A stretch of 39,190 bases of DNA from a virus. Positions within the stretch are counted from its first letter, which is position 1; each line of letters begins with the position of its first letter. The notes under the pieces are model-generated. The model did not search any database and had not been told where the DNA came from. It was given only the letters and a program-made list of their open reading frames with translations. Shown piece after piece: positions 4,411 through 39,190 of this stretch. The stretch covers positions 1 through 39,190 of IMG/VR virus record IMGVR_UViG_3300036407_000013; one strand, given 5' to 3'. The position numbers and the translations under genes are program-made.

Positions 4411-4548
4411 TCGTAGCTCTCGCGTCTTGGGGTGGAGTCTGGTAGAGTTACCGGGTGGAGTTTGAACCCGGCTCACCGCTCTGGATCGCCGCCGCTGCTG
4501 CGTGCGTCGTCATAATCACCGGCCTGCTGCGGCAGGCGGAGGCGTGGA

Positions 4549-19224: not shown

Positions 19225-19388
19225 TCGGGGGCCTTCGCCTTGCGGGCCGGCTTCTCGGCCGACTGCAGGATGGCGCGAGGGGCCTTGACGTACTCGACGC
19301 CCTGCAGCCCAACCACCTTGACCATCACCCACTCGGGATAGGCGCCGGTCACGACGCCTTCCACGAGAACCTTATCGCCTTCTTTCAT
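19221..19388 (-). CDS. 55-residue KOW-like basic protein
   Basis: Reads MKEGDKVLVEGVVTGAYPEW and continues VMVKVVGLQGVEYVKAPR, then a Lys/Arg/Ala-rich tail. The first 30 residues resemble a KOW/SH3-like small barrel (GDKVLVEG...VVG). The ATG at 19388 overlaps the portal stop as ATGA and the stop overlaps the next GTG. It is short but tightly embedded in the portal-scaffold segment. Confidence 0.6.
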   Translation of the reverse strand: MKEGDKVLVEGVVTGAYPEWVMVKVVGLQGVEYVKAPRAILQSAEKPARKAKAPE

Positions 19389-21445: not shown

Positions 21446-22708
21446 CTAGGCGAGCCCCCTGATTTTGCGCCGCACCGGCCCGGAGGCCTTCAGCTCGTCG
21501 CGGTAGGTGATCCCGAGCATCCGCAGCGCATCAGCGCCGTGGCTCGACCAGTCGTGGTAGGGTCTGTCGTGGAACGACTTGCGCTTGTCGTCCCACTGCT
21601 TGCGGTAGTTGCGGAGGCACTCGAGGCCCTGCGCGCAGGCCTTGGCGTCGAACCAAAGGCGCGAGAACAGCACCCGGGTGGCGTTGATCCCGTCTTCCAC
21701 CGCCAGCCGCGGCGCAATCTCGACCTTGCCGGCTCCGAGGATGCCTTCGATCACGCTCTTGCGGGTGATCGCCGTCGTCATCTCGCGGACTTCCGCATCG
21801 TGCGGCAGAACGTGTTTCTCGTAGGCGTAGGGCTTGGCGAGGACGTCCTTGGCGACGCTGGTCAGCGCCTGGCCCGTCCACTCCTGGTAGCCAATCAGCC
21901 GGATCTCGCGGTTGACCACCTGAGCGAACCAGACCGCTGTCGCGTCATCCAGGCCGAGGTCCCAGTAGGTCCGAACCGCAACGGACGGATCATGCGGAAC
22001 GGCGGTGATGCGGTCCTTCTGAGCCTCTTCCAGCTCATCGGCGTAGTAGGCGCCGACAACCGAGGCCTCGAAGCTGCACTCGTACTCCTGAGCGTACTGC
22101 TCGCGGGTCATCTCCCGCTTGGCGTCGCGCAGTTCGTCGTCCGGGATGATCCCCGTTCTCGACGCCTTCAGTTCCGCAAAGAACCACTCTTCCGGGTTCG
22201 ACTTGGCCCGCTCGCAGAGTTCCGCGAAGTGGTTGCGGCCCTTCGGCGTGCCGATGAACGTTGCCTTGCCGCGACGATCGGAGAGAGCCGGCCGGACCAC
22301 CTCGGGCCAAACCCGGGGATCCATGTCGCCGTACTCATCCAGCGCCGCCACATCGAGGTAGAGCCCGCGAAGCCGGTCGTAGTTCTCTGCCCCGTAAAGC
22401 CGGACGCGTGAGCCATCGGGGAAATCCGCCCGAAGCTCTGTCTCGTGGAACTCCACACCGGGGATCGGCCGGCAGATGTCCTTCACGTACTGCCAGGCGA
22501 TGTCCTTGGCCTGAGCGTAGGTCGGCGCGATGTAGGCGCCCCTCGCGTTCGGAAGCGGGCAACGCAGCGTGTCGTCAATCACGTCGGCGAGGGTGCTGAC
22601 CGTCTTCCCCGCCCGCCGGTGCGCCACCTGAGCGGCCCAGCGCTGCGTACGCATGTGGAACGGGATGAACTGCTCCCGCGCCTCGTAGTTAAGTCTGATC
22701 TGCTGCAC
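21446..22708 (-). CDS. terL: Terminase large subunit (packaging ATPase/nuclease)
   Basis: A 420-residue packaging motor. The Walker A motif is AHRRAGKT (29-36) and Walker B LYLDVAALDE (116-125), with motif III in KATFIGTPKG. The RNase H-like nuclease half starts at TYWDLGLDDATAVW (first Asp) and includes HDAEVREM and the C-terminal SSHGADALRML. It packages DNA into proheads through the portal. The start overlaps TerS by 20 bp. This is shorter than P22 TerL but has both domains. Confidence 0.95.
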   Translation of the reverse strand: MQQIRLNYEAREQFIPFHMRTQRWAAQVAHRRAGKTVSTLADVIDDTLRCPLPNARGAYIAPTYAQAKDIAWQYVKDICRPIPGVEFHETELRADFPDGSRVRLYGAENYDRLRGLYLDVAALDEYGDMDPRVWPEVVRPALSDRRGKATFIGTPKGRNHFAELCERAKSNPEEWFFAELKASRTGIIPDDELRDAKREMTREQYAQEYECSFEASVVGAYYADELEEAQKDRITAVPHDPSVAVRTYWDLGLDDATAVWFAQVVNREIRLIGYQEWTGQALTSVAKDVLAKPYAYEKHVLPHDAEVREMTTAITRKSVIEGILGAGKVEIAPRLAVEDGINATRVLFSRLWFDAKACAQGLECLRNYRKQWDDKRKSFHDRPYHDWSSHGADALRMLGITYRDELKASGPVRRKIRGLA

Positions 22709-23084
22709 GAGGCACGCCAGTCACCAGGAACACCGGGCCTTCGGGCGCCGTGTGCTCTTGCTGCACCTTGTCGCCGTAGCGCTTGGGCGCGAGCTTCGAG
22801 AGGTACCAGCGCTCATGGTCGAACAGCAGCCTGGCGCGAGCAACGTCGCCCTCGGTCTCGATGCGCTCGCCAATCCGATCGGCGCGGCAATCGAGGCCGA
22901 TGTCCCGGCTTCGCGTGTATTGCGCAGAAAACCCTTCGCGGTCGTCCACCACCCAGCCGCGCACCGTGCTCTCCGCGGGCATGTCATCACCCTTGCAGAT
23001 CGACCGGAGGCTTTCGCCTGCAGCGATGCGCTCGCAGATCTCGCGGGCTAGTTCGGGTGTGTAGTCGCTGGGCCGTCCGGCCAT
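22689..23084 (-). CDS. terS: Terminase small subunit
   Basis: A 131-residue protein with an N-terminal HTH typical of TerS: GRPSDYTPELAREICERIAAGESLRSICKGDDMPAESTVRGW, read as two halves. This region recognises the packaging site. A helical oligomerisation segment follows (LLFDHERWYLSKLAPKRYG) and a C-terminal tail. It overlaps the TerL start by 20 bp, the usual order. Assignment rests on HTH pattern and position. Confidence 0.85.
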   Translation of the reverse strand: MAGRPSDYTPELAREICERIAAGESLRSICKGDDMPAESTVRGWVVDDREGFSAQYTRSRDIGLDCRADRIGERIETEGDVARARLLFDHERWYLSKLAPKRYGDKVQQEHTAPEGPVFLVTGVPRAADQT

Positions 23085-23131
23085 GTTCCCACCTCTGCCG
23101 GACCCGTTCGGGTGTCCCGGCTCCTGGTTGG

Positions 23132-23329
23132 TTAGCGGTCTTCCTGCGTCAGCTTACCCACGAGGAAGTCTTCGGCGTCCTGGGGCTTCAGGATCTCGCC
23201 GGTCTTCATCCATCCGAGCGGGGTCATGGCCCAGAGGTCGCCGTTGGGGTTGATGCGGTAGGAGTCTTTTAGCTCAGAGGCGGTGATCAGGGCCTTCTGG
23301 ATAAGGCCGTGAAGAATAGCCTGGGCCAC
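23132..23329 (-). CDS. 65-residue hypothetical protein
   Basis: A small protein (MAQAILHGLIQKALITASEL start) with a beta-like middle (SYRINPNGDLWAMTPLGWMKTG) and acidic end. No family recognised. It precedes TerS in the structural operon by 47 bp and follows the 88-residue protein by 32 bp, so it is one of two small leading genes of the late operon. Confidence 0.5.
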   Translation of the reverse strand: MAQAILHGLIQKALITASELKDSYRINPNGDLWAMTPLGWMKTGEILKPQDAEDFLVGKLTQEDR

Positions 23330-23361
23330 GGCTCACGCGCTCCCCTGAGCTTCCGTGTGGG

Positions 23362-23628
23362 CTAGGAAACCAGCTCTTTCCAGAACCGGCGCTCGCGCTC
23401 GACTTCGGCGCGGTAGTCGTTCCACCGAACCTCGTTCCGCACCAGCCGGCCGCGGCGGACGTCGCCGCTGTGCTCGATCGCGTTGGCGAACCAGCCGAAC
23501 ATGATCTCACGGTCCATGTCGGGGTACTGCTCGCAGAAGGCTTCTGCCCACTTCTGGGCGTCGTCGCCGAGGGCAGACAGGAACTCGCCGGCTTCCATAG
23601 CGGCGTACGACTTGGTGGCTTCGCTCAT
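23362..23628 (-). CDS. 88-residue helical hypothetical protein
   Basis: Starts at ATG 23628 with GAGG just upstream; the longer upstream reading is not supported. The product is helical and acidic at first (EATKSYAAMEAGEFLSALGDDAQ) and basic later (GDVRRGRLVRNEVRWNDYRAEVE). It is the first gene after the 226-bp gap that holds the candidate late promoter. No family recognised. Confidence 0.65.
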   Translation of the reverse strand: MSEATKSYAAMEAGEFLSALGDDAQKWAEAFCEQYPDMDREIMFGWFANAIEHSGDVRRGRLVRNEVRWNDYRAEVERERRFWKELVS

Positions 23629-23761
23629 ATGGCCTCGCGTGTAGGGTGGCCCGGAACCGACACAGCTTGAAAGCGTCACCTGGAGAGGTGCGATGTGTGG
23701 TGTTGTTCGGTCGGGCTTCTGGTGGGGCGGGCGCTAGGCGCACTCAGCCCTGTTACTCTTT

Positions 23762-23790
23762 TGTCTAGCTTGGAAGTACTCAGCGGTCAA
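23762..23790 (-). promoter_or_regulatory. Candidate promoter for the structural operon
   Basis: On the minus strand, TTGACC (23785-23790) is followed 17 nt later by TAGACA (23762-23767). It is in the largest non-coding gap of the structural half (23629-23854), about 135 bp before the first structural gene. The -35 is 5/6 and the -10 3/6 to consensus. A sigma70-type activity is inferred only. Confidence 0.4.
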
Positions 23791-23825
23791 GCTGCGTTCC
23801 CGCATGTTGTGGGTCACAGGTGCGT

Positions 23826-23847
23826 GAAGCGCTATACCTTGCGCTTC
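23826..23847. terminator. Hairpin after the 201-residue early gene
   Basis: A perfect 7-bp inverted repeat GAAGCGC / GCGCTTC with an 8-nt loop, 8 bp past the stop of the gene at 23855. No T-run follows on the minus strand, so it may be a weak terminator, an RNA-stability element or an attenuator ahead of the structural operon. The rest of the 23629-23854 gap holds only the promoter listed above. Confidence 0.35.
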
Positions 23848-23854
23848 CCACCCC

Positions 23855-24460
23855 TCACGCAGCCTTCCTCCGCCCTAGCGCCTCACGCTCGATCGCAGCG
23901 TAGGCATCCCGCAGGTTGGCGCAGGAGGATCGCACCGCACCGCATTGGGCGTGGGGGTTCGTCTCTCCCGTCACGTACTCCACCGACTCCCTCCAGGACG
24001 AGCGTTCGGTGCTGGGCTTGATCAGCTCCATGAGCAGCCACCAGTCCCGGGGCGGCAGGCGGGCGACCACGGCCTCAACCCGCTTGGCGGCGTCGATCAT
24101 GGCGTCAGTGACGAGCCCGGCCGTCCGGTCCACCCGCTGCGAGGCTTGGCCCCTGTCCGCCTCCCCTCGCCGAAGCAGGATATCCAGCTCGAAGCGCCTG
24201 GCCGCGTCGTAGCAGCCATGGAAGCGGGGCTGCGTGTTCATCCCGTCTTTGAGCGCGGTGAAGGCATCCAGCCTGCGGACGCTGTCCTCAGTGACTTTCT
24301 GCCCCCCTCGCTTCTGGCCGGCGCGGGTCACTTCGATGTCCTGGCCGTGCGGGAGTGAGGCCGCATCAGTCGGGACGTTGACCGCGTCAAGGTCTAGAGC
24401 GCGGCGCTGTTGGCGCTCTGCTTCAAGCTGCTCGGGTGTCTTTCTGCGGGCTCTTGCCAT
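23855..24460 (-). CDS. DUF6456-like regulatory protein
   Basis: A 201-residue basic protein. The N-terminus is charged (RARRKTPEQLEAERQQRRALD); a central helical part follows (ARRFELDILLRRGEADRGQ) and a domain with RVEAVVARLPPRDWWLLMELI, then a conserved-looking ending SSCANLRDAYAAIEREALGRR. The layout is reminiscent of DUF6456-type alphaproteobacterial phage proteins, but the match is only partial. It sits alone between the primase and the structural operon with its own promoter candidate, so a late transcription regulator is possible. Confidence 0.55.
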   Translation of the reverse strand: MARARRKTPEQLEAERQQRRALDLDAVNVPTDAASLPHGQDIEVTRAGQKRGGQKVTEDSVRRLDAFTALKDGMNTQPRFHGCYDAARRFELDILLRRGEADRGQASQRVDRTAGLVTDAMIDAAKRVEAVVARLPPRDWWLLMELIKPSTERSSWRESVEYVTGETNPHAQCGAVRSSCANLRDAYAAIEREALGRRKAA

Positions 24461-24468
24461 GTGCTTAG

Positions 24469-24497
24469 ACTCTAGCTGATTTGCTTGAAGTTGCTAA
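24469..24497 (-). promoter_or_regulatory. Candidate promoter upstream of the DUF6456-like gene
   Basis: TTAGCA (24492-24497) and TAGAGT (24469-24474) on the minus strand are separated by 17 nt in an A/T-rich 49-bp gap, about 10 bp before the ATG at 24460. Both hexamers match consensus at 4/6. The short leader leaves no strong ribosome site. Confidence 0.4.
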
Positions 24498-24509
24498 GGT
24501 TTTCCACTC

Positions 24510-25472
24510 TCAGGCTGCGACATTTACGTTCGCGGGCTCCATCTCCCGCTGCGCATTCCACACGTCGTTCCAATCCATGCCCGGGGCTGGCGGCAGACGC
24601 ACCTCGACCTCGAACCGCTCCCGGCGCAGGCGCTTCGCCAGGTTGAAGGCGGCGGACTGACCGGCGAAGTTGCCGTCGTTGTCCCCGAAGACGATCACCC
24701 GCACCCCGGCCGGCGGCTCCCAGGCCTCAAGCGTCGTAGTGTTCAAAGCCGACCAGACAGGCACGCCCGTCAGCTCCGAGGCCGCCACGGCCGTCTCAAT
24801 CCCCTCAGCGATGCCGAGCACCTCGCCCGGCTTGTACAGCCGCACGGCGCAGCCCTTGGGCATCGGCAGGGCCATCACGCGGCGGGGCTCCTCAACATCC
24901 GCTTTGAGCCCTCCAGCGGCCAGGAAGGTCCGGTGCAGGTTCACCGCCTTGCCGTCTGCGCCCTGGATGATCGACAGCATGGCCGGGAACACGCCCGCGC
25001 CTGGGCAGCGAAGGGCCGGCGTGGCCCGCACCGTCGTCAGCGTCGGCACACGCCCGATGCGGTTGCGCCACCAGTCCGCCGCCTCCTCCACCATGTGCAG
25101 AGGCATGGCGGCTTTCCACATCCGCTCCATCTCAGCCCGAACCTCGGCCACGTCCGGGCCTTGGCGGATCTTGATGGGCCGGGCGGAACCGACCAGCGCG
25201 GCGACTTCCTCGAGCGCCTTCGGGAAGGTCCAGCCGTTGACGCCCATGACCAGGGCGAACCCGTCGCCGGACTGCTTCGGGCAGTGGTGGCAGAACCATG
25301 TGCCGGCGCCGTCCTTGTCATCGAAACGGAAGCGGGTCCGTCCGTCTTGGCACATCGGGCACGGCCCTAGCCGATTGACCAGGAACGTGTCGCTCACCCC
25401 AAGGGTGCGGAGGATCGAGGGCCACTTGCCGCGGGCTTCGGCCTTCACCTGAGCGGAGTCGATCTTGCTCAT
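24510..25472 (-). CDS. Phage primase with zinc finger and Toprim domain
   Basis: A 320-residue replication protein. The N-terminal zinc finger is C38-x2-C41 ... C61-x2-C64 (CPMC, CHHC). The Toprim core has GIAEGIETAVAA with the catalytic Glu and VIVFGDNDGNFAG with the DxD motif. This is the P4/T7-type primase arrangement without a fused helicase; a separate SF2 helicase is encoded immediately upstream (ATGA). It would synthesise primers on viral ssDNA. Shorter than DnaG because the helicase-binding domain is absent. ATG at 25472 is fixed by the overlap. Confidence 0.88.
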   Translation of the reverse strand: MSKIDSAQVKAEARGKWPSILRTLGVSDTFLVNRLGPCPMCQDGRTRFRFDDKDGAGTWFCHHCPKQSGDGFALVMGVNGWTFPKALEEVAALVGSARPIKIRQGPDVAEVRAEMERMWKAAMPLHMVEEAADWWRNRIGRVPTLTTVRATPALRCPGAGVFPAMLSIIQGADGKAVNLHRTFLAAGGLKADVEEPRRVMALPMPKGCAVRLYKPGEVLGIAEGIETAVAASELTGVPVWSALNTTTLEAWEPPAGVRVIVFGDNDGNFAGQSAAFNLAKRLRRERFEVEVRLPPAPGMDWNDVWNAQREMEPANVNVAA

Positions 25473-26950
25473 GCGGCCCTCCCCCGCGACTTCACGAAGC
25501 GGATGTTCTGGGCTGTGATCCAACTGCGGACCTCGGCACTGACGCCGGCCGCGGGCGGCGCGTACTTCACCCGCGGATCGTTGGGCCAGCACGAGAACCT
25601 AGCCTTGTACTTGTGGGCGACCCAGCCATCGGACTTGCCGGTGCTGACGGCGTAGGCGCGAAGCTGGCGGATGAACCCGACCTTCGCAGCCCAGTCCGTG
25701 TCGCGGTTCGCCTTGCGGGCGGAGGTGAGGTCGACCAGCTCGCCGTCCACCGTCTCAACCTCGGTCGAGCGTTCGGCGACGTGTCCGCAAGACGGACACT
25801 CCCGCACCTTCGGCGCCCGCACATAGTGGCAGGAGGGGCACTCCTTCGGCTTCGCAGGCTCACGCTCGCCGGCCGGCTTGGAGCCTTCGGCCATCGTCCC
25901 GTCGTTCAGCCGGTCGTGGTGGATGTCGGTCACGAACCCCAGCCGCAGCGTGGTGTCGCTGTGGTCGAGCACCAGGCAGTCGTCCTTGCCCTCGGCGGTC
26001 CGCAGGCCGCGGCCAATGATCTGCGTGTAGAGGATCTCGCTTTTGGTTGGCCGGGCCAGGATCACACAGCGCACGTCCCAGTCCACGCCCGTCGTCAGAA
26101 CCCCGACGTTGCAGACGACCTTCAGCTCACCAGACTGGAACGCCTTGCGGATCTGCTCGCGCTCTTCCGGCGGTGTGTTGGCGTCGATGTAGCCGCAGCG
26201 GACGCCCTGCGCCGTGAACTCGGCCTGCAGCGTCTTGGCGTGGAGACGATCGACCGCGAAGCACAGCGTGGGCCGGTTCTCCCCCAGCTCCAGCCAGGTG
26301 GTGACGACGTCGGCCGTCAGCGTGCATTTCTGCATCGCCTCCGAGAGCTGGCCTTCGTGGTAATCCCCGGCGACTGTCTTCACGCCCGTCAGGTCGGGAT
26401 GCGACGGCGCGAAGACCCGGAAGTTCGACAGGAAGCCGGCCTCTATCAGCTCGGACGTGGTGGCCGCGATGATCAGGCGGTCGTACAGCCGCCCCAGGCC
26501 TTTCGTCCAAGGGGTCGCGGACAGGCCGATGAACGGCACTTCGATCCACTCGTCCCGGGTCATCCAGTCGCCGACGAACTCGAAAATCCGGTGCGCTTCG
26601 TCGATCAGAACGAGGTCGGCTTCCGGGATCCAGCGGCGCTGCAGCGTCTGGATGCTGGCGATCTGAACCGGCTTGCTCGGGTCCGTCATCGGGTGATCGG
26701 CCTGGATCACGCCAAGGTCGCGGATGCCCTCGGCGTAGAACTCGCGAACCGTCTGATCCACGAGGCTGATCGCCGGAACCGTGAAGATCACCCGCTTGCC
26801 CTTGGCCCGGGCGCTTTCGATGATCGACGCGGCGAGAACCGTCTTCCCAGCGCCAGTCGGAGCCTGGAGGATCGGCCGCTTGCTGCCCGAGCGGAGCGCT
26901 TCCCGCAGCAGACCGACAGCGCGTTGCTGGTGAGGTCGGAGCGTTCTCAT
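25469..26950 (-). CDS. SF2 DEAD/DEAH-box helicase
   Basis: A 493-residue helicase. Motif I is APTGAGKT (30-37), motif II DEAH (117-120), motif III SATPW and motif VI QIIGRGLRT. After the RecA-like domains comes a zinc ribbon (CPSCHYVRAPKVRECPSC) and a C-terminal region with a conserved WAAKVGFIRQLRAYA helix. Comparable phage proteins pair with a Toprim primase for DNA replication or repair. Both ends are coupled by ATGA. Roles in unwinding viral DNA are inferred from family and neighbours. Confidence 0.9.
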   Translation of the reverse strand: MRTLRPHQQRAVGLLREALRSGSKRPILQAPTGAGKTVLAASIIESARAKGKRVIFTVPAISLVDQTVREFYAEGIRDLGVIQADHPMTDPSKPVQIASIQTLQRRWIPEADLVLIDEAHRIFEFVGDWMTRDEWIEVPFIGLSATPWTKGLGRLYDRLIIAATTSELIEAGFLSNFRVFAPSHPDLTGVKTVAGDYHEGQLSEAMQKCTLTADVVTTWLELGENRPTLCFAVDRLHAKTLQAEFTAQGVRCGYIDANTPPEEREQIRKAFQSGELKVVCNVGVLTTGVDWDVRCVILARPTKSEILYTQIIGRGLRTAEGKDDCLVLDHSDTTLRLGFVTDIHHDRLNDGTMAEGSKPAGEREPAKPKECPSCHYVRAPKVRECPSCGHVAERSTEVETVDGELVDLTSARKANRDTDWAAKVGFIRQLRAYAVSTGKSDGWVAHKYKARFSCWPNDPRVKYAPPAAGVSAEVRSWITAQNIRFVKSRGRAA

Positions 26951-27429
26951 CGAACCGTCCTCCCAACCAACGGGATGACTTCGGCTCCAGTACCAACCTT
27001 AAGCTCTTCAGCTAATCCCTGGTTGGATAGGTTGTTAGATACAGACACTGGACACTGGACATCGCGTATGTCCGCAATTGTGCCCACAATTGTGCACCCG
27101 TCAGAGCCACCTTCACGGACCAATCGGCGGGTCGCGCTGACCCCGAGAGCATGCTCCCGCTTGGCTTCGGTGAAGGGATGCATCCAGCGGCCATCGACCA
27201 GCTCGAACTGGCCGAGCACGGCGCCGCGGACCTTCCGCCAGCGGGCCAGCGGATAGCGAACGGTGCGGGCCAGCGTGGCGTCGTCGTTCGGCGGAGCCCC
27301 GTTGAGCCAGTAGTCCCGGATGAGGCGCAGGTAGGCGCACTCCTCCAGCTCGCTCATGCGGCTGGTGGCCTTGTTCACCTCGGCGAAGTGCAGAGGCATG
27401 AAAACTTCGATCGACGGACGACGGGTCAT
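26947..27429 (-). CDS. DUF1376 (YdaU-like) replication-region protein
   Basis: A 160-residue protein whose start has the DUF1376 pattern: FMPLHFAEVNKATSRMSELEECAYLRLIRDYW, read as two helices. Family members occur next to phage replication genes and are thought to help helicase loading. The C-terminal 50 residues (CTIVGTIADIRDVQCPVSVSNN) are unconserved. ATG 27429 overlaps the DnaA-like stop as ATGA and the stop overlaps the helicase start. Confidence 0.85.
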   Translation of the reverse strand: MTRRPSIEVFMPLHFAEVNKATSRMSELEECAYLRLIRDYWLNGAPPNDDATLARTVRYPLARWRKVRGAVLGQFELVDGRWMHPFTEAKREHALGVSATRRLVREGGSDGCTIVGTIADIRDVQCPVSVSNNLSNQGLAEELKVGTGAEVIPLVGRTVR

Positions 27430-27692
27430 TCCGGCGCCTCCGGGACCATCCGGGCCTCGACCGCGCGCTCGGCGTGCCAGACCGTCGTGTGATCCTTCAT
27501 TCCGAAGAACCCGGCGATCTGGGGCATGGAGTAGCGGTTGGTGCCGTCCTCCCGCTTCACCTGGCGCATCAGCCACATGGCCTCCTGGCGCGGGCGGGCG
27601 ATGTACCGGCGCCGGGACTGCGTCTTCAGTTCGTCAGGCTCCAGGCCATAACGATGGGCCACCTCGGCGGCGATCTCGCGCATCGTGCTCAT
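27426..27692 (-). CDS. Stand-alone DnaA domain IV-like protein
   Basis: An 88-residue protein corresponding to the C-terminal DNA-binding domain of DnaA without ATPase domains. The signature stretches are ARPRQEAMWLMRQV, SMPQIAGFFGMKDHTTVWHA, which align with the DnaA signature helix-turn-helix that reads the DnaA box. It could bind DnaA boxes at the phage origin or compete with host DnaA. ATG 27692 overlaps the next upstream gene as ATGA. Domain assignment is confident; function is inferred. Confidence 0.85.
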   Translation of the reverse strand: MSTMREIAAEVAHRYGLEPDELKTQSRRRYIARPRQEAMWLMRQVKREDGTNRYSMPQIAGFFGMKDHTTVWHAERAVEARMVPEAPE

Positions 27693-29480: not shown

Positions 29481-29621
29481 AGCTGTTGAGCAGGGGCGAG
29501 CGTTTGAAGGGGCGGTCGGGAGGCGCATGGCTAGGCCGCGCCCCCGGAATTCACTTTTGCGAGACCGCGGAAAGCATCTTTCCTACCAACTCGTTTACGG
29601 GTTGGAGGCTCGACTCCGCCC

Positions 29622-29906
29622 ATGGCTGGGGAACGCACCAGACGGCCGCCGATGGCACTGCACCTGGCAGCGCATGCGTGGCTGAGTACGCCGCCCAACG
29701 ACGCCTCGGAGGCGGAGGGCTGCAATGCACACTTCGCCAGAGCCCGACGATTTCTGATGCACCGGCCCGCGACGGACGTGGTGGTGCTGGGCGAGCAGGT
29801 GTCGCCCGAACAATTCGAGGAGCTGCGGACAGAGGGCTTGGCCGAGCTGCGCGACATGTGCGCGGCGTGCGGCGGATGCACGCGTTTCGGGCTCAAAGCC
29901 CCATAA
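29622..29906 (+). CDS. Small Cys-motif protein (CAACGGC)
   Basis: A 94-residue protein; the start may instead be ATG 29652, and neither has a clear ribosome site. The body is helical (LHLAAHAWLSTPPNDASEAEG, ARARRFLMHRPATDVVVLGE) and the end carries MCAACGGCTRFGL, three cysteines in CxxCGGC form. The next gene has the related RCETCGGCPL. The shared element suggests a common metal-binding or redox module. The upstream 29481-29621 holds no recognised element beyond a weak stem (GGAG / CTCC). Confidence 0.5.
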   Translation: MAGERTRRPPMALHLAAHAWLSTPPNDASEAEGCNAHFARARRFLMHRPATDVVVLGEQVSPEQFEELRTEGLAELRDMCAACGGCTRFGLKAP

Positions 29907-30011
29907 CGGGTAGCGCGATCACCTTTGGCGCAAGATGTCGCATTCCTTTCACATCCGTTAAGGTTCGCCATATGCGCGAGCGAGAGGGACATCTCGCGGG
30001 AGGAGCGACTA

Positions 30012-30248
30012 ATGCCGGGCCCCCAGCCGTGGCAGATCGAAGCCGCACGGTGCGCCAGACGCACCCGAGAAGAACTGATCGAATACGCGCCGAAGCGGCC
30101 GTTGCCGCTCCGCGACACGTTACGCCTGAAGGTCATGCAGGCCCGCTGCGAGACGTGCGGCGGCTGCCCGCTAATCCTGCGGGCGCTGAACATCATGCTG
30201 CCCGAGGAGGAGAAGCCCTCGGCGCAGATCATCAGATTGGCGGGCTGA
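30012..30248 (+). CDS. Small Cys-motif protein (CETCGGC)
   Basis: A 78-residue protein whose ATG follows a good GGGAGGAG site. It begins PGPQPWQIEAARCARRTREEL and contains RLKVMQARCETCGGCPLILR in the middle, with CxxCGGC matching the end of its neighbour. The C-terminus is polar (EEEKPSAQIIRLAG). Probably a small zinc-binding or regulatory protein. Its stop is 7 bp from the stop of the convergent Cro-like gene. Confidence 0.6.
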   Translation: MPGPQPWQIEAARCARRTREELIEYAPKRPLPLRDTLRLKVMQARCETCGGCPLILRALNIMLPEEEKPSAQIIRLAG

Positions 30249-30255
30249 GCAGACA

Positions 30256-30465
30256 TCAGGCCGCGCCCTTCTCGGGTGGCGTCTGGAACAGCTTCCCAGC
30301 AGGGATCTTCGTCAGCTTCTCCAGCGCGGCCGCAGCTTTGAAGGAGGGCTGCGATGCGCCGTTCTTCAGACGGTTCACCTGGGAGCGACTGACGACGCCT
30401 ACGGCCTCGGCGACTTCCAAGTCGCTCTTGCCGTTCGCGTCCATCCACTTCTTAAGCGCTGTCAT
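30256..30465 (-). CDS. cro: Cro-like HTH repressor
   Basis: A 69-residue HTH protein: MTALKKWMDANGKSDLEVAEAVG, then SRSQVNRLKNGASQPSFKAAAALEKLTKIP, the standard Cro/C1-type HTH with recognition helix in the second part. It is divergent from the S24 repressor, the usual cro position. The ATG at 30465 lies about where transcription from the TTGACC/CACATT promoter would begin, so the message may be leaderless; a longer start at 30480 is possible. Probably counters the repressor and promotes lytic development. Confidence 0.8.
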   Translation of the reverse strand: MTALKKWMDANGKSDLEVAEAVGVVSRSQVNRLKNGASQPSFKAAAALEKLTKIPAGKLFQTPPEKGAA

Positions 30466-30471
30466 GCCCGC

Positions 30472-30501
30472 AATGTGCATCTCATGCACGTATGCGGTCA
30501 A
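30472..30501 (-). promoter_or_regulatory. Leftward early promoter (to cro)
   Basis: On the minus strand TTGACC (30496-30501) and CACATT (30472-30477) are 18 nt apart. Operator 1 covers the downstream part of the spacer and most of the -10, and operator 2 lies just upstream of the -35. The rightward promoter at 31313-31342 has the same plan. Confidence 0.55.
30475..30489. promoter_or_regulatory. Repressor operator 1
   Basis: GTGCATCTCATGCAC, a perfect palindrome with half-site GTGCAT and a 3-bp spacer. It overlaps the cro promoter -10. Centre to operator 2: 34 bp. Confidence 0.75.
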
Positions 30502-30508
30502 TCAAAAT

Positions 30509-30523
30509 GTGCATGGGGTGCGC
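30509..30523. promoter_or_regulatory. Repressor operator 2
   Basis: GTGCATGGGGTGCGC, one good half-site GTGCAT and one degenerate half-site. Lies upstream of the cro -35 and of the repressor gene; 34 bp from operator 1 and 46 bp from operator 3. Confidence 0.65.
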
Positions 30524-30552
30524 TGGTGCGATTGACGCAGGCGACTAGACCC

Positions 30553-31233
30553 ATGTGCATGGCCCGCACAGCCCGCACCGAGTCCCTTACGACCACACAC
30601 AAGGTCCGCGCCTGGCGGCAGAACAGGGGCCTGACTTTGGAGAAGCTGGCCGAGGCTATCGGCATGAGCCACCAGAACCTCGGGCGGATCGAGCGCGGCC
30701 TAGTTCCGCTGGGCGAGGAACATCACGCCCCCCTGGCTGCAGCTCTGAACATCACCCCGCCTGACCTCTTCCGCGATCCCTCCGCGCCGCTCGACCGCGG
30801 GCAGCGCTACGTGCGGATCATCGGGCGGGCCGGCGCTGACACAGAAGGCCGGCTCGTCCAGAGCGACGCTGACGAGAACTACGACTATGCCCCCTTCCCT
30901 CCGGGCGGCACGTCCGATGCTGTCGCAGTTCGGGTGGTAGGTGACAGCATGCGCGCCATCGCCGAAGACGGAGCCCTCATCTACTTCCGGGACCAGAGGA
31001 ACCCGCCCACTCCCGACATGATCGGCTACAACTGCATCGTTGAGCTGGAGGACGGGCGGGTGCTGTTTAAGCGGCTTCTGCGCGGGCCGGAGCCGGGGAT
31101 CTACATGCTCGAGAGCCAGGTTGGCCCGCCCATCGAGGCACGCATCCGGTGGGCTGCCGAGCCGACCGCGATCATCCCGGCGAAGGAAGCGCGCCGGATC
31201 ATCCGCCGCGCCGACGAAAGCCAAGTCGCCTAA
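30553..31233 (+). CDS. cI: CI/LexA-like repressor with S24 peptidase domain
   Basis: A 226-residue prophage repressor. The N-terminal HTH (VRAWRQNRGLTLEKLAEAIG, then SHQNLGRIERGL) binds operators. The C-terminal S24 domain has the catalytic Ser in VVGDSM (Ser132) and Lys in LFKRLL (Lys173), and a candidate self-cleavage Ala-Gly in GRAGAD (residues 93-94). RecA-activated cleavage would cause induction. The start is ATG 30553 or 30559; both sit inside operator 3, which would make repressor synthesis self-regulated, and neither has a ribosome site (possible leaderless message). The divergent Cro-like gene confirms an immunity region. Confidence 0.9.
   Translation: MCMARTARTESLTTTHKVRAWRQNRGLTLEKLAEAIGMSHQNLGRIERGLVPLGEEHHAPLAAALNITPPDLFRDPSAPLDRGQRYVRIIGRAGADTEGRLVQSDADENYDYAPFPPGGTSDAVAVRVVGDSMRAIAEDGALIYFRDQRNPPTPDMIGYNCIVELEDGRVLFKRLLRGPEPGIYMLESQVGPPIEARIRWAAEPTAIIPAKEARRIIRRADESQVA
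30555..30569. promoter_or_regulatory. Repressor operator 3 overlapping the repressor start
   Basis: GTGCATGGCCCGCAC: one GTGCAT half-site and a weaker second half. It covers the repressor start codons and would give negative autoregulation at high repressor concentration. Confidence 0.5.
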
Positions 31234-31290
31234 CCAACCACTGCTGTTGCGGGTCACGTCTTAGCGACAGCACGCCGCATGCGCTCCGAT

Positions 31291-31305
31291 GTGCACGTGA
31301 TGCAC
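31291..31305. promoter_or_regulatory. Repressor operator 4
   Basis: GTGCACGTGATGCAC, half-sites GTGCAC and GTGCAT (reverse). It lies upstream of the rightward -35; its centre is 34 bp from operator 5, the same spacing as operators 1 and 2. Confidence 0.7.
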
Positions 31306-31312
31306 TTTCTTG

Positions 31313-31342
31313 TTGACCGGAGATGTGCATCGGGTGCACAGT
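31313..31342 (+). promoter_or_regulatory. Rightward early promoter (accessory/recombination operon)
   Basis: TTGACC (31313-31318) and CACAGT (31337-31342), 18 nt apart, between operators 4 and 5, with operator 5 covering the spacer end and part of the -10. The downstream gene starts at 31368 behind AAGGAG. Likely repressed in the lysogen. Confidence 0.55.
31325..31339. promoter_or_regulatory. Repressor operator 5
   Basis: GTGCATCGGGTGCAC, both half-sites intact apart from the A/G at one position. It overlaps the rightward promoter -10, so bound repressor should block the plus-strand operon. Confidence 0.75.
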
Positions 31343-31367
31343 GCTCCTACCAACAAGGAGCAGCCAG

Positions 31368-31565
31368 ATGGCGTCTGAACAAAGCCTCGCCCAAGAGTTC
31401 GCCCGCCTCGCCCTGAGCTACCAGCCCGGCGATGAGCGCGAGGAAAAGGCCCGCCAACTGTTCCGGGCCATCGCCAACAGCCTCCGCCCCCTGATGGGTG
31501 AGGACACCATGGCGGAAGAGCTGGGCCTGCAGATGGAAGCCCTGGCCGAACGGAAGGCCGCTTGA
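31368..31565 (+). CDS. 65-residue first gene of the rightward operon
   Basis: A helical protein (SEQSLAQEFARLALSYQPGD, REEKARQLFRAIANSLRPLM). The start has an excellent AAGGAG at 7 nt. It is directly controlled by operators 4 and 5, so it is an immediate-early gene. No family recognised. Its stop overlaps the next ATG as TGATG. Confidence 0.7.
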   Translation: MASEQSLAQEFARLALSYQPGDEREEKARQLFRAIANSLRPLMGEDTMAEELGLQMEALAERKAA

Positions 31566-34373: not shown

Positions 34374-34558
34374 TGGACCGGCTCTCCGACATCGGGCTCG
34401 GCCTGCCGAACCTGCCGCCTCCCCACCAGGTCTGCTGCGACCTCTGCGAGGGCGTGATGACCGTCCCCAGCCACTGCGCCGAGCAAGGCCAGATCATCGG
34501 CCTGCTGACGTGCTCCCAGTGCATCGAGGATGAGCTGCAGTCGAGGGTCTGCCAATGA
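34373..34558 (+). CDS. 61-residue putative zinc-binding protein
   Basis: Contains VCCDLCEGV and CSQCIEDE, giving CxxC...CxxC spacing for a zinc site, with an intervening Cys and His (SHCAEQG). Starts at the TGATG overlap and is coupled by ATGA to the YqaJ-type exonuclease. May regulate or chaperone recombination genes. Confidence 0.55.
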   Translation: MDRLSDIGLGLPNLPPPHQVCCDLCEGVMTVPSHCAEQGQIIGLLTCSQCIEDELQSRVCQ

Positions 34559-35388
34559 ACGCGCATGTGGATCTGGAGACGCTCGGCCTCTCGGCTCAAG
34601 CCGTGGCCCAGCGCGTGCGGTCGATCGGCGGCTCGGATGCCAACTGCATCATGAGCGGCGACGACGCGGCGGTTCTCAGCCTCTGGGAGCAGAAGACCGG
34701 CCGGCGCGAGCCCGACGACCTGTCCGACGTCCTGCCGGTGCAGATGGGCTCGTTCACGGAGCCGCTGAACGCCGCCTGGTTCGAGAAGCAGACGGGCAAG
34801 GCGATCGTCAGTCGCGGGCTGCCGGTCATTGACGACCGCGACCCATGGCGCACCGCCACGCTCGACGGGATGGTCTGCGCCGACGACAGCGGCGAGATGC
34901 TTGGCATCTGGGAAGCCAAGCACGTCGGCAATTTCTGGAAGGACGAACAGCTCCTCGCGAAGTACGCGCCCCAGCTGCACCACAACATGGACGTCGCGGG
35001 CCAGCGGAAAGCCTACCTCTCCGTCTTCAAGGGCAACGCCGACTGGTGCTTCTTCGAGGTGGATTACGACGCCAGCTATAGCGCCGCTGTCCGCAAGGCC
35101 GAGTGGCAGTTCTGGCTGGCCGTTCAGGCCGATGAGCCGCCGGTCGCCTACGACGCCCCGCCCCCGCCCGCGTTCGACGCCATGCGCGAGATCTGCATGG
35201 ACGGCAACAACGAGTGGGCGAACCACGCCATCGACTGGCTGGCGCACCGCGACGCCTCCAAGGCCTTCGAGAAGGCCACCAAGGCTCTGAAGGGCCTGAT
35301 GGAAGCCGACGTGAAGCTCGCCCACGGCCACGGCATCAAGATCAGCCGGTCAAAGGCCGGCGCTCTCAGCATCACGGAGAAAAAGTGA
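34555..35388 (+). CDS. YqaJ-type phage exonuclease
   Basis: A 277-residue lambda-exonuclease/YqaJ nuclease for 5'-3' resection in phage recombination. The catalytic series is E69 (FTEPLNAAWFE), D104 (TLDGMVC), E120-x-K122 (GIWEAKHV), matching D-(x)15-E-x-K. The N-terminal RSIGGSDAN is the conserved substrate-binding start of the family. The gene is immediately followed by a Rad52-like annealing protein, the usual exonuclease/annealing pair. Confidence 0.9.
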   Translation: MNAHVDLETLGLSAQAVAQRVRSIGGSDANCIMSGDDAAVLSLWEQKTGRREPDDLSDVLPVQMGSFTEPLNAAWFEKQTGKAIVSRGLPVIDDRDPWRTATLDGMVCADDSGEMLGIWEAKHVGNFWKDEQLLAKYAPQLHHNMDVAGQRKAYLSVFKGNADWCFFEVDYDASYSAAVRKAEWQFWLAVQADEPPVAYDAPPPPAFDAMREICMDGNNEWANHAIDWLAHRDASKAFEKATKALKGLMEADVKLAHGHGIKISRSKAGALSITEKK

Positions 35389-36221
35389 TGGAAGCCACCG
35401 ACCTCACCACCCAACAGCTCGCGAAGCTGCGCGCGCCGTTCCCCGCCAACCAGGTCAGCAAGCTCCCGAAGGAGACAAAGGCTCAGAAGGAGGAGCGCGA
35501 GAAGGACCGCTCCAAGGGCGTGAGCTGCAACATCTGCGGCGGCTGGCACCACAAGAACACGATCCACCTGGATTACGTGGGCCACGCGGCGCTCACCGAC
35601 CGCCTGCTGGACGTGGACCCGATGTGGTCCTGGGAGCCGGTGGCGTTCCGTGACGGCCTGCCTGCCTTCGACCAGACCGGCGGGTTGTGGATCAAGCTTA
35701 CCGTCTGTGGCGTCACGCGCCTCGGTTACGGACACGCCGCTGGCAAGACCACTATGGACCCTGGCGCGCGCGAGAAGGAAGTCATCGGCGACGCCCTGCG
35801 CAACGCCGCCATGCGCTTCGGTGCGGCCCTGGACCTCTGGCACAAGGGCGACCTGCACGCGCACGAGGAGAGCGCGGAGGAAACCGAAGCGGCCAAGCCG
35901 CCGAAGGTCCAGCCGCAGCGCGCCGCGAAGCCCGAGCCCCACAACGCGCCCCCCGCCAGCAACCCTGTCGACCGCACGGCGGAGGCCGTCCCCTGGCCGA
36001 ACAACCAGGACCCCGACGACTGGGCGCACTGGCGCAAGATCGTGGCCACCAAGATCAACCGCGCCGGCTCGGCGGTGGAAGTTGGACAGGTGCAGGCGAT
36101 CAACGCCGAGGGCCTGGTCCGCTGCGGAGAGGTGCTGCCGGACACCCGCGAGAAGATCGACGCCTTCGTGGCGGACCGCCTCGCCAAGTTGGCCGAGCCC
36201 GAGCACAGGGTCGCCGCCTGA
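35388..36221 (+). CDS. Rad52-like single-strand annealing protein
   Basis: A 277-residue protein with a core resembling Rad52/Sak-type annealing proteins: DYVGHAALTDRLLDVDPMWSWEP, then KEVIGDALRNAAMRFGAALDLW, the region corresponding to the DNA-binding helices. A small Cys/His cluster, SCNICGGWHH, precedes it and may be a zinc knuckle. The C-terminal half has a Pro/Ala linker (about 155-190) and a final helical domain. It pairs with the upstream exonuclease for recombination-dependent replication. Identity is inferred from motif and neighbour. Confidence 0.7.
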   Translation: MEATDLTTQQLAKLRAPFPANQVSKLPKETKAQKEEREKDRSKGVSCNICGGWHHKNTIHLDYVGHAALTDRLLDVDPMWSWEPVAFRDGLPAFDQTGGLWIKLTVCGVTRLGYGHAAGKTTMDPGAREKEVIGDALRNAAMRFGAALDLWHKGDLHAHEESAEETEAAKPPKVQPQRAAKPEPHNAPPASNPVDRTAEAVPWPNNQDPDDWAHWRKIVATKINRAGSAVEVGQVQAINAEGLVRCGEVLPDTREKIDAFVADRLAKLAEPEHRVAA

Positions 36222-36331
36222 TGGCCCCGCAACCGCCAGTCTGGAGAGAGGAGGAACTGCGCGACTTCTGCCGCGCCGTCCTCCGCACCTTTCCCGGGCA
36301 CCAAGATCACCGTGAGGGAGGTCGCCCGTGA
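36221..36331 (+). CDS. 36-residue hypothetical protein
   Basis: A tiny gene coupled to both neighbours: TGATG at 36221 and a GTGA overlap with ninB at the end. The product is charged with an aromatic-rich start (APQPPVWREEELRDFCRAVL) and basic end. Likely real because of the perfect coupling; function unknown. Confidence 0.5.
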   Translation: MAPQPPVWREEELRDFCRAVLRTFPGHQDHREGGRP

Positions 36332-36765
36332 GCAGGGTCGTGTTCCGCCTGATCAACCGCCGGGAGAAGGACCGAGCCGTCCGGTTCGTCCTCAACGCCC
36401 CTGACAACGCGGTCTGCACCTTCACCCGCGCCGACAAGCGCACGCTGGAGCAGAACGCCAAGCTGCACGCCCTCTGCACCGACGTCGCCGGGCAAGTGGC
36501 CTGGCAGGGCAAGAAGCGGGACGTGGAGGCGTGGAAGGACATTTTCACGGCTGCCCTGCGCTCGGCCAAGAACGAGCTGGACGTGGTCCCCGGCATCAAC
36601 GGCGGCTTCGTCCTGCTCGGGATGCACACGAGCGAGATGAGCAAGGGCGAGTGCGCCGAACTGATCGAACTGGTGCTTGCCTTCGGGGCCGAGCACGAGG
36701 TGGTGTTTCATGACGACGCCAGGGACGGGGAGGCTCCTAACAAGGCCTCCCCGAAGGCGGCGTGA
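36328..36765 (+). CDS. ninB: NinB-type recombination protein
   Basis: A 145-residue protein with the NinB hallmark: FTRADKRTLEQNAKLHALCTDVA, followed by WQGKKRDVEAWKDIF and FVLLGMHTSEMSKGECAELIEL, which align with the lambda NinB (Orf) ssDNA/SSB-binding fold. It loads annealing proteins and supports recombination. The start is GTG 36328 by GTGA overlap. Confidence 0.9.
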   Translation: MSRVVFRLINRREKDRAVRFVLNAPDNAVCTFTRADKRTLEQNAKLHALCTDVAGQVAWQGKKRDVEAWKDIFTAALRSAKNELDVVPGINGGFVLLGMHTSEMSKGECAELIELVLAFGAEHEVVFHDDARDGEAPNKASPKAA

Positions 36766-36941
36766 AGACCTGGCGCATCCATCTCTACGGCTTCGACAGC
36801 CATACGGTCCAAGCGCCGACCAGGGGCGCTGCCCGATACGCCGATTGGCGGCGGGCACGCGAGGCCGGCTACTTCACGGGCTCGGATGGCTTCTGGCGCT
36901 TCCTGATCAACTCGCGCGTCGAAGAGGTGCGTCATGGCTGA
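36762..36941 (+). CDS. 59-residue aromatic basic hypothetical protein
   Basis: Reads MKTWRIHLYGFDSHTVQAPT then ARYADWRRAREAGYFTGSDG and FWRFLINSRVEE. It starts at GTG 36762 in a GTGA overlap and its 3' end overlaps the HNH gene by 8 bp. A similar short phage protein occurs next to ninB in other phages, but I have no named family. Confidence 0.6.
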   Translation: MKTWRIHLYGFDSHTVQAPTRGAARYADWRRAREAGYFTGSDGFWRFLINSRVEEVRHG

Positions 36942-37335
36942 TGGCTCCACCTACACCCTGCGTCAGGTCCCCGAGTGGATCGGCAAGACACCGGACACCC
37001 CGGTCCCGAAGGCCGTCAAAACCCGCCTGCTGCTCCGCTACGGCGGCAAGTGCTATCGGACAGGCCACAGGTTCCGCCCGGGCGACGCCATCGAGTTCGA
37101 CCACATCGTGGCCCTCTGCAACGGCGGGGAAAACCGCGAAAGCAACCTCGCTCCCATCCTCGGTGGCAAGCCCCACCAGGAGAAGACCAAGACCGACCGG
37201 GACGAGAAGACCAAGACGGACAGGATGCGGCTGAAGGCGCTGGGTCTGTGGCCGAAGTCGAAGCGACCCCTGCAAGGCCGCGGCTTCTCCTCTGCTCGGG
37301 ATTTTCCGGTCGACAATCGAAAGGGGCGGAAGTGA
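36934..37335 (+). CDS. HNH endonuclease
   Basis: A 133-residue HNH nuclease. The motif includes EFDHIVALCNGGENRESNLAP (His57 and Asn71) and KPHQEKT (final His81), giving the H-N-H/K arrangement. Two cysteines (Cys40 and Cys62) may support the fold. It could help packaging or recombination. The start at 36934 overlaps the previous gene, and its stop overlaps the next GTG. Confidence 0.88.
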   Translation: MADGSTYTLRQVPEWIGKTPDTPVPKAVKTRLLLRYGGKCYRTGHRFRPGDAIEFDHIVALCNGGENRESNLAPILGGKPHQEKTKTDRDEKTKTDRMRLKALGLWPKSKRPLQGRGFSSARDFPVDNRKGRK

Positions 37336-37625
37336 ACCTCGCCACGCTAGCCGCAGCGACAGCAGCCACCCTTCTGACGGCAACGGAGGCCCAGGCCGAC
37401 CCGTGCAAGCTGATCCCGGACAGAGGGTCTGCCCCCGCCTGGCTGAAGCCTGGCGCCACGTTCTCCGGGCCTGTCGTCTACGTCGGTGATGGCGACAGCC
37501 TCTGCGTTGCGCTCGGTCAGGCGCCCAGCCAATGGCTGGAGGTGCGTCTTGCCGACTTCTACGCCCCCGAGCTGAGCCAGCCCGGCGGGAAGCAGGCGCG
37601 GGACGCCCTCGCCGCCTCGTCATGA
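37332..37625 (+). pseudogene. SNase-like nuclease, N-terminal part
   Basis: A 97-residue secreted protein: signal peptide (about residues 1-21, LATLAAATAATLLTATEAQA), then CKLIPDRGSAPAWLKPGATFSG and a thermonuclease-type core VVYVGDGDSLCVAL ... VRLADFYAPELSQPGG ... ARDALA. This is the first half of an SNase-like domain; the frame stops at TGA 37623-37625. The second half continues in another frame at 37622. A single-base deletion, sequencing error or programmed shift could explain it. GTG start at 37332. Confidence 0.6.
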
Positions 37626-37756
37626 ACCGGCGGATCTCCTGCACGGCCGAGAACCGCACGTATGACCGCTACGCCGCCGCCTGCACGCTGAACGGCAGGG
37701 GCTTGGGCGCGCTGCTCCGTGCGGCCGGCGTCAGGGAAGGTGGGAGGGGGCGATGA
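37622..37756 (+). pseudogene. SNase-like nuclease, C-terminal part
   Basis: A 44-residue continuation: NRRISCTAENRTYDRYAAAC, then TLNGRGLGALLRAAGVREGG, which matches the second half of SNase-like proteins (V-x-C ... YGR-type ... R-L-G). Overlaps the first part as ATGA, so it could be separately translated, but the domain spans both frames. The two may assemble if expressed. Confidence 0.6.
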
Positions 37757-38124
37757 GCGCGTTCGAGCACCTACCCCCGCGGCTAACCACGGCCCAAGTC
37801 TGCGAGCTCGCTCACTGCAGCGTCACCACGCTCTGGCGCAAGCGACGGGAGAACCCCGCCTGGCTGCCGGCCGCGGCGGTCCAACTCAGCAAGACCACCA
37901 TGTTTGATCGTGACGCAGTTCTCACGGCGCTCGGTTTGATGAAGGATGCCCCCGCCAATGACCAATGGGCGGTTGACCCCGATGCCATCCGTAAAGCTCG
38001 AGCTCGGAAAGTACGTCACGCTCCGGCGTCGGCAGGACGGCACCTATCGGGTGCTGATGGAGGTTCCCGCCAGGCTGCGGCCCTCCGACTGGCTGCCAGC
38101 AATCCCGCTCCCCATCGAGGGTAG
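37753..38124 (+). CDS. Putative excisionase-like HTH protein
   Basis: A 123-residue reading. The first 65 residues are an AlpA/Xis-type HTH: RLTTAQVCELAHCSVTTLWRK, then RENPAWLPAAAVQLSKTTMF and DRDAVLTALGLM. After that the frame runs through the integrase in another register and loses domain character (Arg/Ala/Gly-rich). Overlap with the integrase reading from 37946 is 179 bp. Location next to the integrase supports an excision role. Confidence 0.6.
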   Translation: MSAFEHLPPRLTTAQVCELAHCSVTTLWRKRRENPAWLPAAAVQLSKTTMFDRDAVLTALGLMKDAPANDQWAVDPDAIRKARARKVRHAPASAGRHLSGADGGSRQAAALRLAASNPAPHRG

Positions 38125-39190
38125 CCGAACGGGTGACCTGACGGACCTGGACGAGCTCGCTCGCATCAAGTCCGATGCGGCGCGGCTCTACACGAACCTG
38201 CTGCGACTGCGAGCGGGCTACGAGCCGGCGGAGCGCACGACGAAGGATCTCCCGCGGCTGGTGCGCGAGTGGGAGAAGTCGCAGTTCTTCAAGGCCAAGA
38301 AGCCGCGCACCCAGAAGGGCTACAGCTACCACGCGGGTCTAGTGCTGGATTGGTCGGAGGCGACGGGCCACAAGCCGGTCGCGGCGCTCTCGCGGAAGGC
38401 CATAGAGGACTTCCTGGCGCTCTATGACGACCGGCCAACCACCCGGCGTCACGTGAAGATCGTTCTCAAGATGCTGCTGGACCACGCCATCGCCATGGAG
38501 TGGCGAGCAGACAACCCGGCCGAACGCATCAAGGTCACGGCGCCCGAGACGGAAGTGACCATCTGGGAGCTCGAGGACGTGCGCCGGGAAGCGTGGGCCT
38601 GCGCCGAAGCTGGCCAGCCGTCGATCGCCGCGCTGATCCTCACCAACTGGGAGATCGGCCAGCGCCTCACAGACGTACGCCTGTTCCGCCGCGGGGCGGA
38701 GTACATCAACGGTGCGTTCCGCTTCTGGCAGTCGAAGACCGGCGCTTACGTCACCATCGAGGTCAGCGCCGAGCTCCAGGAGCTCCTGGCCGCGATCGAG
38801 AAGCCGGACAGCCTCTATCTGTTCACCGATGCGGCCACCGGCAAGCCTTGGGACGAGCAGCGCCTCGGCCACGTGTTCGCAGCGATCCGCACGAAGCCGG
38901 AGCTCCAGCTGCGAGCTCTCCGCCACAGCTGCGTCGTCCAGTTGGCCCGGCACGACGCCACCATTCCCGAGATCGCCAGCATCACCGGCCACTCGCCGTT
39001 CTCGGCCGAACAGATCCTCCGCAAGTACCTGCCGCGGGACAACGAGCTCGCGTGGGCGGCGCAGCGGAAACGGGGTCTGATCGGAACGACTCGCGCACAG
39101 GAGTCTGACGGCGGGTCCGACAGGAAGTCTGACGGTGCGGACGCAGCGCGCTCACCCAACCCGAAAACCGCAACAAGGGCAAAGGGTTAG
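37946..39190 (+). CDS. int: Tyrosine integrase
   Basis: A 414-residue site-specific recombinase, ending at the window edge. N-terminal arm-binding region, SAM-like core-binding domain (about 95-190) and catalytic domain follow. Residues: R240 (EIGQRLTDV), K264 (QSKTGAY), R326-H327 in RALRHSC, H349 in ITGHSPFSAEQ, and nucleophile Tyr361 in ILRKYLPRD. The His of the usual HxxR is Arg323 here. The C-terminus is charged and disordered. Start could be 37946, 37958 or 37982; none has a strong ribosome site. attP is not visible and probably lies beyond the edge. Confidence 0.9.
   Translation: MPPPMTNGRLTPMPSVKLELGKYVTLRRRQDGTYRVLMEVPARLRPSDWLPAIPLPIEGSRTGDLTDLDELARIKSDAARLYTNLLRLRAGYEPAERTTKDLPRLVREWEKSQFFKAKKPRTQKGYSYHAGLVLDWSEATGHKPVAALSRKAIEDFLALYDDRPTTRRHVKIVLKMLLDHAIAMEWRADNPAERIKVTAPETEVTIWELEDVRREAWACAEAGQPSIAALILTNWEIGQRLTDVRLFRRGAEYINGAFRFWQSKTGAYVTIEVSAELQELLAAIEKPDSLYLFTDAATGKPWDEQRLGHVFAAIRTKPELQLRALRHSCVVQLARHDATIPEIASITGHSPFSAEQILRKYLPRDNELAWAAQRKRGLIGTTRAQESDGGSDRKSDGADAARSPNPKTATRAKG

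Follow-up and report, generated by a model that had tools for sequence, protein, structure and literature searches.

The 39,190-base IMG/VR virus record analysed here over its full length (the window) very probably contains a temperate-phage immunity switch that follows the logic of lambda and has an operator system of its own. In lambda, the order is OL/PL, cI, OR/PR and cro, with exonuclease, annealing protein and integrase on the PL side and cro and replication genes on the PR side. The window resembles this scheme in that a CI-like repressor lies between two outward early promoters with three operators on the cro side; the content of the right operon resembles that of the PL operon and the content of the left operon that of PR. 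However, the operator sequence is different, and the 15-bp sites lie 33–35 bp apart versus about 20–24 bp in lambda, which is roughly one helical turn more. In addition, there are two OL sites rather than three, and the cro mRNA is predicted to be leaderless. Because spacing and sequence differ, the switch uses lambda logic but not the lambda operator system. The paired sites represent a widespread lambda-type design of the lysis/lysogeny switch in alphaproteobacterial prophages that, as far as we searched, was previously unreported.

The cro-like and cI-like genes are divergent with operators in between (Table 1). The Peptidase_S24 match of CI scores 25.2 bits against a Pfam cut-off of 23.3, and the protein contains a catalytic dyad of the LexA/S24 type (Ser132 within GDSM, and Lys173), both residues of which are kept in the related repressor of the locus L005. 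Ala93-Gly94 is a candidate self-cleavage site. Leftward, cro is followed by replication genes and then by packaging genes; the right operon begins with small genes of no assigned function, and recombination genes and integrase come later. Judged by gene content, both operons are lytic. Pairs of XRE proteins with palindromes occur also in restriction-modification, plasmid copy and toxin-antitoxin systems, and the HTH profile of CI matches controller proteins as well. Membership of the sites in a restriction-modification controller, a plasmid copy control or a toxin-antitoxin module is nevertheless extremely improbable: one operon has replication genes, terminase and portal, the other has integrase besides recombination genes, and the same distal module is present in the isolated Rhizobium phage PPF1.

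Two small plus-strand ORFs (29622–29906 and 30012–30248) face cro on the opposite strand and encode a C-x2-C-x2-C-like motif (CAACGGC and CETCGGC). Look-alikes of both, in the same order (4218–4493 and 4575–4832), flank the L005 repressor. A minus-strand open frame of 305 aa (29531–30448) overlaps cro and both small ORFs and is probably an artefact of high GC content. An Rfam search gave no match.

Table 1 Features of the immunity region and of the two operons in the window.
Feature	Position	Strand	Remarks
SU10-type portal (left operon)	19385–21445	-	cargo block 19385–27576
Terminase (left operon)	21446–22708	-	
Primase (left operon)	24510–25592	-	
Helicase (left operon)	25469–26950	-	
Primosomal-like protein (left operon)	26947–27576	-	
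Cro-like protein	30256–30465	-	69 aa, HTH_3; Arg at residue-28 position (434 numbering) of recognition helix
PR-like promoter, predicted	30465–30501	-	TTGACC 30501–30496, 18 nt, CACATT 30477–30472; predicted +1 30465
Operator 1 (GTGCATCTCATGCAC), OR1-like	30475–30489		perfect match; in -35/-10 spacer of leftward promoter, overlaps -10
Operator 2 (GTGCATGGGGTGCGC), OR2-like	30509–30523		1 mismatch; upstream of leftward -35, 34 bp from operator 1
CI-like repressor	30553–31233	+	226 aa, HTH_3 (18–71) and Peptidase_S24 (99–185); His at residue-28 position
Operator 3 (GTGCATGGCCCGCAC), OR3-like	30555–30569		degenerate, 1 mismatch to core; on first repressor codons, 46 bp from operator 2
Operator 4 (GTGCACGTGATGCAC), OL-like	31291–31305		perfect match; upstream of rightward -35
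PL-like promoter, predicted	31313–31349	+	TTGACC 31313–31318, 18 nt, CACAGT 31337–31342; predicted +1 about 31349
Operator 5 (GTGCATCGGGTGCAC), OL-like	31325–31339		perfect match; in rightward -35/-10 spacer, overlaps -10, 34 bp from operator 4
Inverted repeat	31342–31362	+	TGCTCCT (31342–31348) / AGGAGCA (31356–31362)
Right operon gene 1	31368–31565	+	65 aa, no assigned function
RecE-like exonuclease (right operon)	34555–35388	+	cargo block 34555–39190
Single-strand annealing protein (right operon)	35388–36221	+	
NinB (right operon)	36328–36765	+	
HNH (right operon)	36934–37335	+	weak match
Integrase (right operon)	from 37946	+	

An earlier note on this DNA had described five copies of GTGCAT-N3-RTGCAC around the immunity genes, arranged as two outward-pointing modules of equal geometry. 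The five sites are present, with the two pairs centred at 30482 and 30516 and at 31298 and 31332, each exactly 34 bp apart, and both modules contain TTGACC with a hexamer (CACATT or CACAGT) spaced by 18 nt that points outward from the repressor. The strict 6-3-6 form of the motif proved too narrow; relaxed patterns give the core xTGCA-N5-TGCAx'. Across the whole window, the core GTGCA-N5-TGCAC has three perfect sites versus 0.0 expected from simulated sequence, which places operators 1, 4 and 5 far above chance, and these perfect copies are confined to the immunity region. One-mismatch sites of the core number four versus 2.0 expected, and two of them are operators 2 and 3. When the window was scanned with the motif of the earlier note, all sites with zero to one mismatch were these operators, but at three mismatches the count was that of background (60 versus 54 ± 9). 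A literature search for the operator motif in its literal form found none. A chance origin of the sites is ruled out by the counts of perfect sites together with zero matches for a scrambled control. Assignment of operator 2 rests on the 34-bp geometry; operator 3, which is weak by itself, gains support from third operators in relatives. Both predicted promoters score far from the sigma-70 consensus, and no cI promoter could be placed in the window, since the TTGACG at 30532 would start transcription past the cI ATG.

A repressor-based search for relatives found one viral contig only, and relatives were hence sought by operator pattern. Scanning IMG/VR for pairs of TGCAY-N3-RTGCA sites spaced by 34 bp revealed 45 viral stretches, compared with none for the same pattern scrambled to CATG. 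Most of the 21-nt gaps between these twin operators hold TTG[AC], in either orientation, at an offset of 8–10. With the gap left free, 45 of 52 TTGAC-bearing pairs were spaced by 32–35 bp, although the 34-bp peak among them partly reflects ascertainment through the first scan. Inclusion of TTGAC in the pattern yielded 48 viral stretches, a further looser pattern yielded 106, and a scan of species genomes that included TTGAC yielded 22 loci, of which 19 are alphaproteobacterial, two come from Brevibacterium and one is a chance repeat in Paenibacillus. The Paenibacillus match (L155) was set aside as a repeat, as were the tandem-repeat matches L018, L020, L021, L022, L027, L029 and L042. The twin module, defined by operators 33–35 bp apart and TTGAC at a fixed offset, occurs in about 100 additional contigs, viral and bacterial, and the named contigs among them are mostly alphaproteobacterial. 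In whole bacterial genomes, the twin pattern has few or no other copies and the control zero. In a class-wide scan, the module was present in one of 385 genomes and is therefore a rare prophage trait rather than a genomic one. The cultured phages RHph_I1_23, RHph_Y1_10, PBC5 and vB_MseS-P1 had no TGCA twin module in the scan.

Pseudanabaena phage Pam5 (L260) contains at most a diverged twin pair (TTGCGAGATGCGCAT / TTGCGAGTTGCGCAA), whose members are spaced by 32 bp and lie close to a related C repressor. The two Brevibacterium loci (L170 and L171) show a twin module with TTGACG in two actinobacterial genomes, and the HTH profile found no XRE pair at either. Members of one group (L069, L076, L107, L129, L182, L183, L185 and L188) have mixed outer bases (TGAG); where found, a Cro-like ARDRAHISKLRRG helix lies near the module, and the downstream ORF has a Shine-Dalgarno sequence and not a leaderless start.

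A divergent pair of CI- and Cro-like XRE proteins was found in nearly all loci with enough readable flank. Among 68 non-redundant loci, whose relatedness was partly handled by clustering at 45–90% identity, 65 have an outward module behind cI, 44 have an intergenic module towards cro, and 41 have both; a second module went undetected in 27 of the 68 under the criteria used. Of the 44 intergenic modules, 32 are accompanied by a third operator towards cI, mostly at 25–26, 33–36 or 43–46 bp; such a third site is rare at distal modules. The distribution of modules and third operators thus indicates a layout in which OL has two sites and OR three. Operator 3 of the window, which the earlier note had placed over the repressor start, lies at a distance consistent with the third-site positions of relatives. 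The geometry of operator 1 is common to the intergenic modules of other phages, and that of the PL-like promoter recurs at the distal modules of other loci. The proposal that one repressor closes both outward promoters and has a site at its own start is supported by the 41 loci with both modules, by the frequent third operator towards cI, by the covariation of helix residue and operator base described below, and by the lytic gene content. The earlier note did not point out that this layout corresponds to the OL/OR scheme of lambda, nor that the Cro-like protein would be expected to recognise these operators too.

The 34-bp spacing might result simply from fitting one -35 box between two sites, with no cooperativity between the two dimers, but this strikes us as somewhat unlikely. 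Spacings of 33 and 35 bp also occur, and the offset of the -35 box may be the real constraint. On the other side, spacing is held to 32–35 bp over very different phages, and L005 keeps 35 bp with another operator sequence, neither of which proves cooperativity. The L005 repressor is 62% identical to that of the window in the best segment; its C-terminal domain is kept, and its HTH is different. GTGCAT-type operators are absent from L005, which has instead a pair of GGTAT-N5-ATACC-like sites at a spacing of 35 bp with TTGAC in the gap. The pair (GGTATGTTTGATACC / GGTAGTTTTAATACC) lies at 4849–4898 with a minus-strand TTGAC between its members and an ATG exactly at the predicted +1. Thus, the geometry may outlive the operator sequence. 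This natural exchange of HTH and operators supports a reading of the sites by residues of the recognition helix.

Comparison of operators with the proteins encoded beside them revealed that the outer base of the operator tracks one recognition-helix residue in both CI and Cro: Arg or His goes with G, Gln with A, and Lys, Val, Ala or Asp with T. The window obeys this rule with His in CI, Arg in Cro and G as the outer base. The HTH profile of CI matches 434 repressor chains (E 3.7e-8), P22 C2 and lambda CI; the CI of the window alone gave one weak PDB match. By the profile offset (profile position 5 to chain residue 10), the residue corresponds to Gln28 of 434 repressor. An unbiased scan of HTH columns in the discovery set ranked the residue-28 column first for Cro and second for CI. 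The rule was noted first as Gln-A, His/Arg-G and Val/Ala-T and was then tested on loci from the looser pattern. It was obeyed by 30 of 31 clusters of held-out loci at 60% identity (p<5e-5), a count that includes Lys with T, a class added after the rule was noted; without Lys the figure is 25 of 25. Exceptions occur in the discovery set, for example L008 and L184. The covariation in both proteins argues that CI and Cro would read the same sites. Alternatively, the sites might be mainly operators of Cro as the lytic repressor, with CI acting on another or partly overlapping set. In the discovery set, Cro does give a stronger column-base signal (z 5.5) than CI does (z 3.4). However, the CI and Cro of one held-out locus usually have the same residue class and both follow the rule, related CIs with a DQS or DAS helix pair with A-rich or T-rich outer bases, and sites lie on both sides of cI, as a CI system requires. 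We consider the Cro-operator alternative very unlikely.

These observations are consistent with a model in which CI dimers, with a 434-type HTH and a LexA/S24 C-terminal domain, would bind the xTGCA-N5-TGCAx' operators, and the residue equivalent to Gln28 of 434 repressor would read the outer base x. Each lytic promoter would be covered by a 34-bp pair, one site upstream of the -35 box and the other in the spacer and on the -10 box. The left pair and operator 3 would form the OR equivalent, shutting the leftward promoter for cro, replication and late genes, and operator 3 over the cI start would tune cI; the right pair would be the OL equivalent and shut the rightward recombination-integration operon. 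Cro would read the same sites and compete with CI. Upon DNA damage, S24 self-cleavage would open both promoters. The sites, their geometry, the gene content, conservation and protein-DNA covariation are observed; from them we infer operator occupancy, repression, the sign of autoregulation and CI cleavage.

Transcription starts were predicted as the position 36 bases past the initial T of TTGAC. For 38 of 39 intergenic modules this +1 places the cro ATG at -1 to +2, and in the window the match is exact, at 0; the cro mRNA is therefore predicted to be leaderless. Since the distal promoter has the same geometry, its +1 is calibrated by cro. The earlier note mentioned neither the leaderless cro mRNA nor the inverted repeat at the right-hand promoter. 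This repeat straddles the predicted +1: the 5' arm lies between -10 and +1, at -7 to -1 in the window, and the 3' arm covers the Shine-Dalgarno sequence of the first right-operon gene. Addition of the 10 bases upstream of +1 lowered the folding energy by a mean of 8.5 kcal/mol with the native arm versus 4.7 with arms from other loci. The native arm was better than swapped arms in 48 of 55 loci (p 2.5e-8), and a duplex test still favoured it in 20 of 25 (p 6e-5) when loci were clustered at HTH identities as low as 45%. For the window, the Shine-Dalgarno sequence has a computed openness of 0.60 in RNA started at +1 versus 0.26 in read-through RNA (means, 0.38 versus 0.20). Openness was lower in read-through RNA at 31 of 58 loci and higher at five, and intergenic modules showed no such effect in the same computation. 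Between native and swapped arms the difference in openness was modest (0.23 versus 0.29, p 0.03).

Because cI is transcribed towards the right operon, these results suggest a lock on read-through RNA. RNA started at the PL-like promoter would lack the 5' arm, leaving the Shine-Dalgarno sequence free; read-through RNA from the cI operon would carry the arm, which would hide the Shine-Dalgarno sequence of the first gene and keep the lytic genes untranslated. We tentatively propose a two-layer guard, in which CI operators would stop initiation at the PL-like promoter and the hairpin would stop translation of cI read-through, together with a one-residue operator code that would sort alphaproteobacterial immunity groups; we put its chances at slightly below even. 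About as probable is that the inverted repeat forms an ordinary hairpin at the mRNA 5' end, or serves as a protein site, and locks no read-through RNA. The +1 is predicted, and a start 6–8 nt earlier would put the hairpin in every transcript; moreover, CTCC is common to many 5' arms. What speaks for the lock is that the cro start falls on its ATG by the same promoter geometry, which sets the position of the arm relative to +1 in the window, that the variable loop length argues against a protein dyad, and that native arms pair better than swapped ones. In Tn10/IS10 fold-back inhibition and in the early/late control of T4 gene e, read-through RNA hides the ribosome site, and transcripts begun at the proper promoter are without the 5' arm. 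The putative lock would differ from these in that it would guard the lytic operon of a prophage, and the read-through would come from the cI operon of that prophage. If true, it would explain how lytic genes stay silent despite cI transcription towards them.

Several known systems share parts of this arrangement. The repressors of 434, P22 and lambda belong to the same HTH family as CI, but the TGCA core with its 5-bp centre differs from their known operators. The operator motif of Rhizobium phage 16-3, whose switch is well studied, is reported to be 434-like. This phage (DQ500118) likewise has an alphaproteobacterial host and a C repressor between PL and PR with two operators each; its operators are annotated as 12 and 14 bp, however, with centre spacings of 17 and 26 bp calculated from coordinates versus 34 bp here. 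In PY54, leaderless cI and cro mRNAs have been mapped, and in the PY54/N15/phiKO2 switch the specificity of Cro depends on base pairs at the periphery of the operator (PMC4488713). The window shares with PY54 a leaderless cro, predicted here and mapped there, and a tie between outer operator bases and specificity; the operators are different, and a single operator is reported in PY54. An isolated example is Rhizobium phage vB_RleM_PPF1, which contains a twin module of TTGCA-N5-TGCAA sites spaced by 34 bp with TTGAC between them. The outer base in PPF1 is T instead of G, the same scan found the distal module alone, and its CI is 86% identical to that of L160. PPF1 provides a test system for the switch.

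Among Sinorhizobium phiLM21-like prophages, a 2025 survey detected no lambda or 16-3 operators and did not settle which operators these prophages use (PMC12429752). The operators of alphaproteobacterial prophages are largely unknown, and the twin module offers a sequence signature by which to locate the switch. It also suggests, through an outer base of A, G or T, which prophages may share immunity, and it gives exact predictions of start sites.

Operator 4 together with TTTCTTGTT scores as terminator-like. The count of T after the upstream operator averages 3.9 of 8 positions at distal modules versus 2.6 of 8 at intergenic ones (p 3e-5); operator 4 and the T-rich stretch may end cI transcripts or serve as an UP element.
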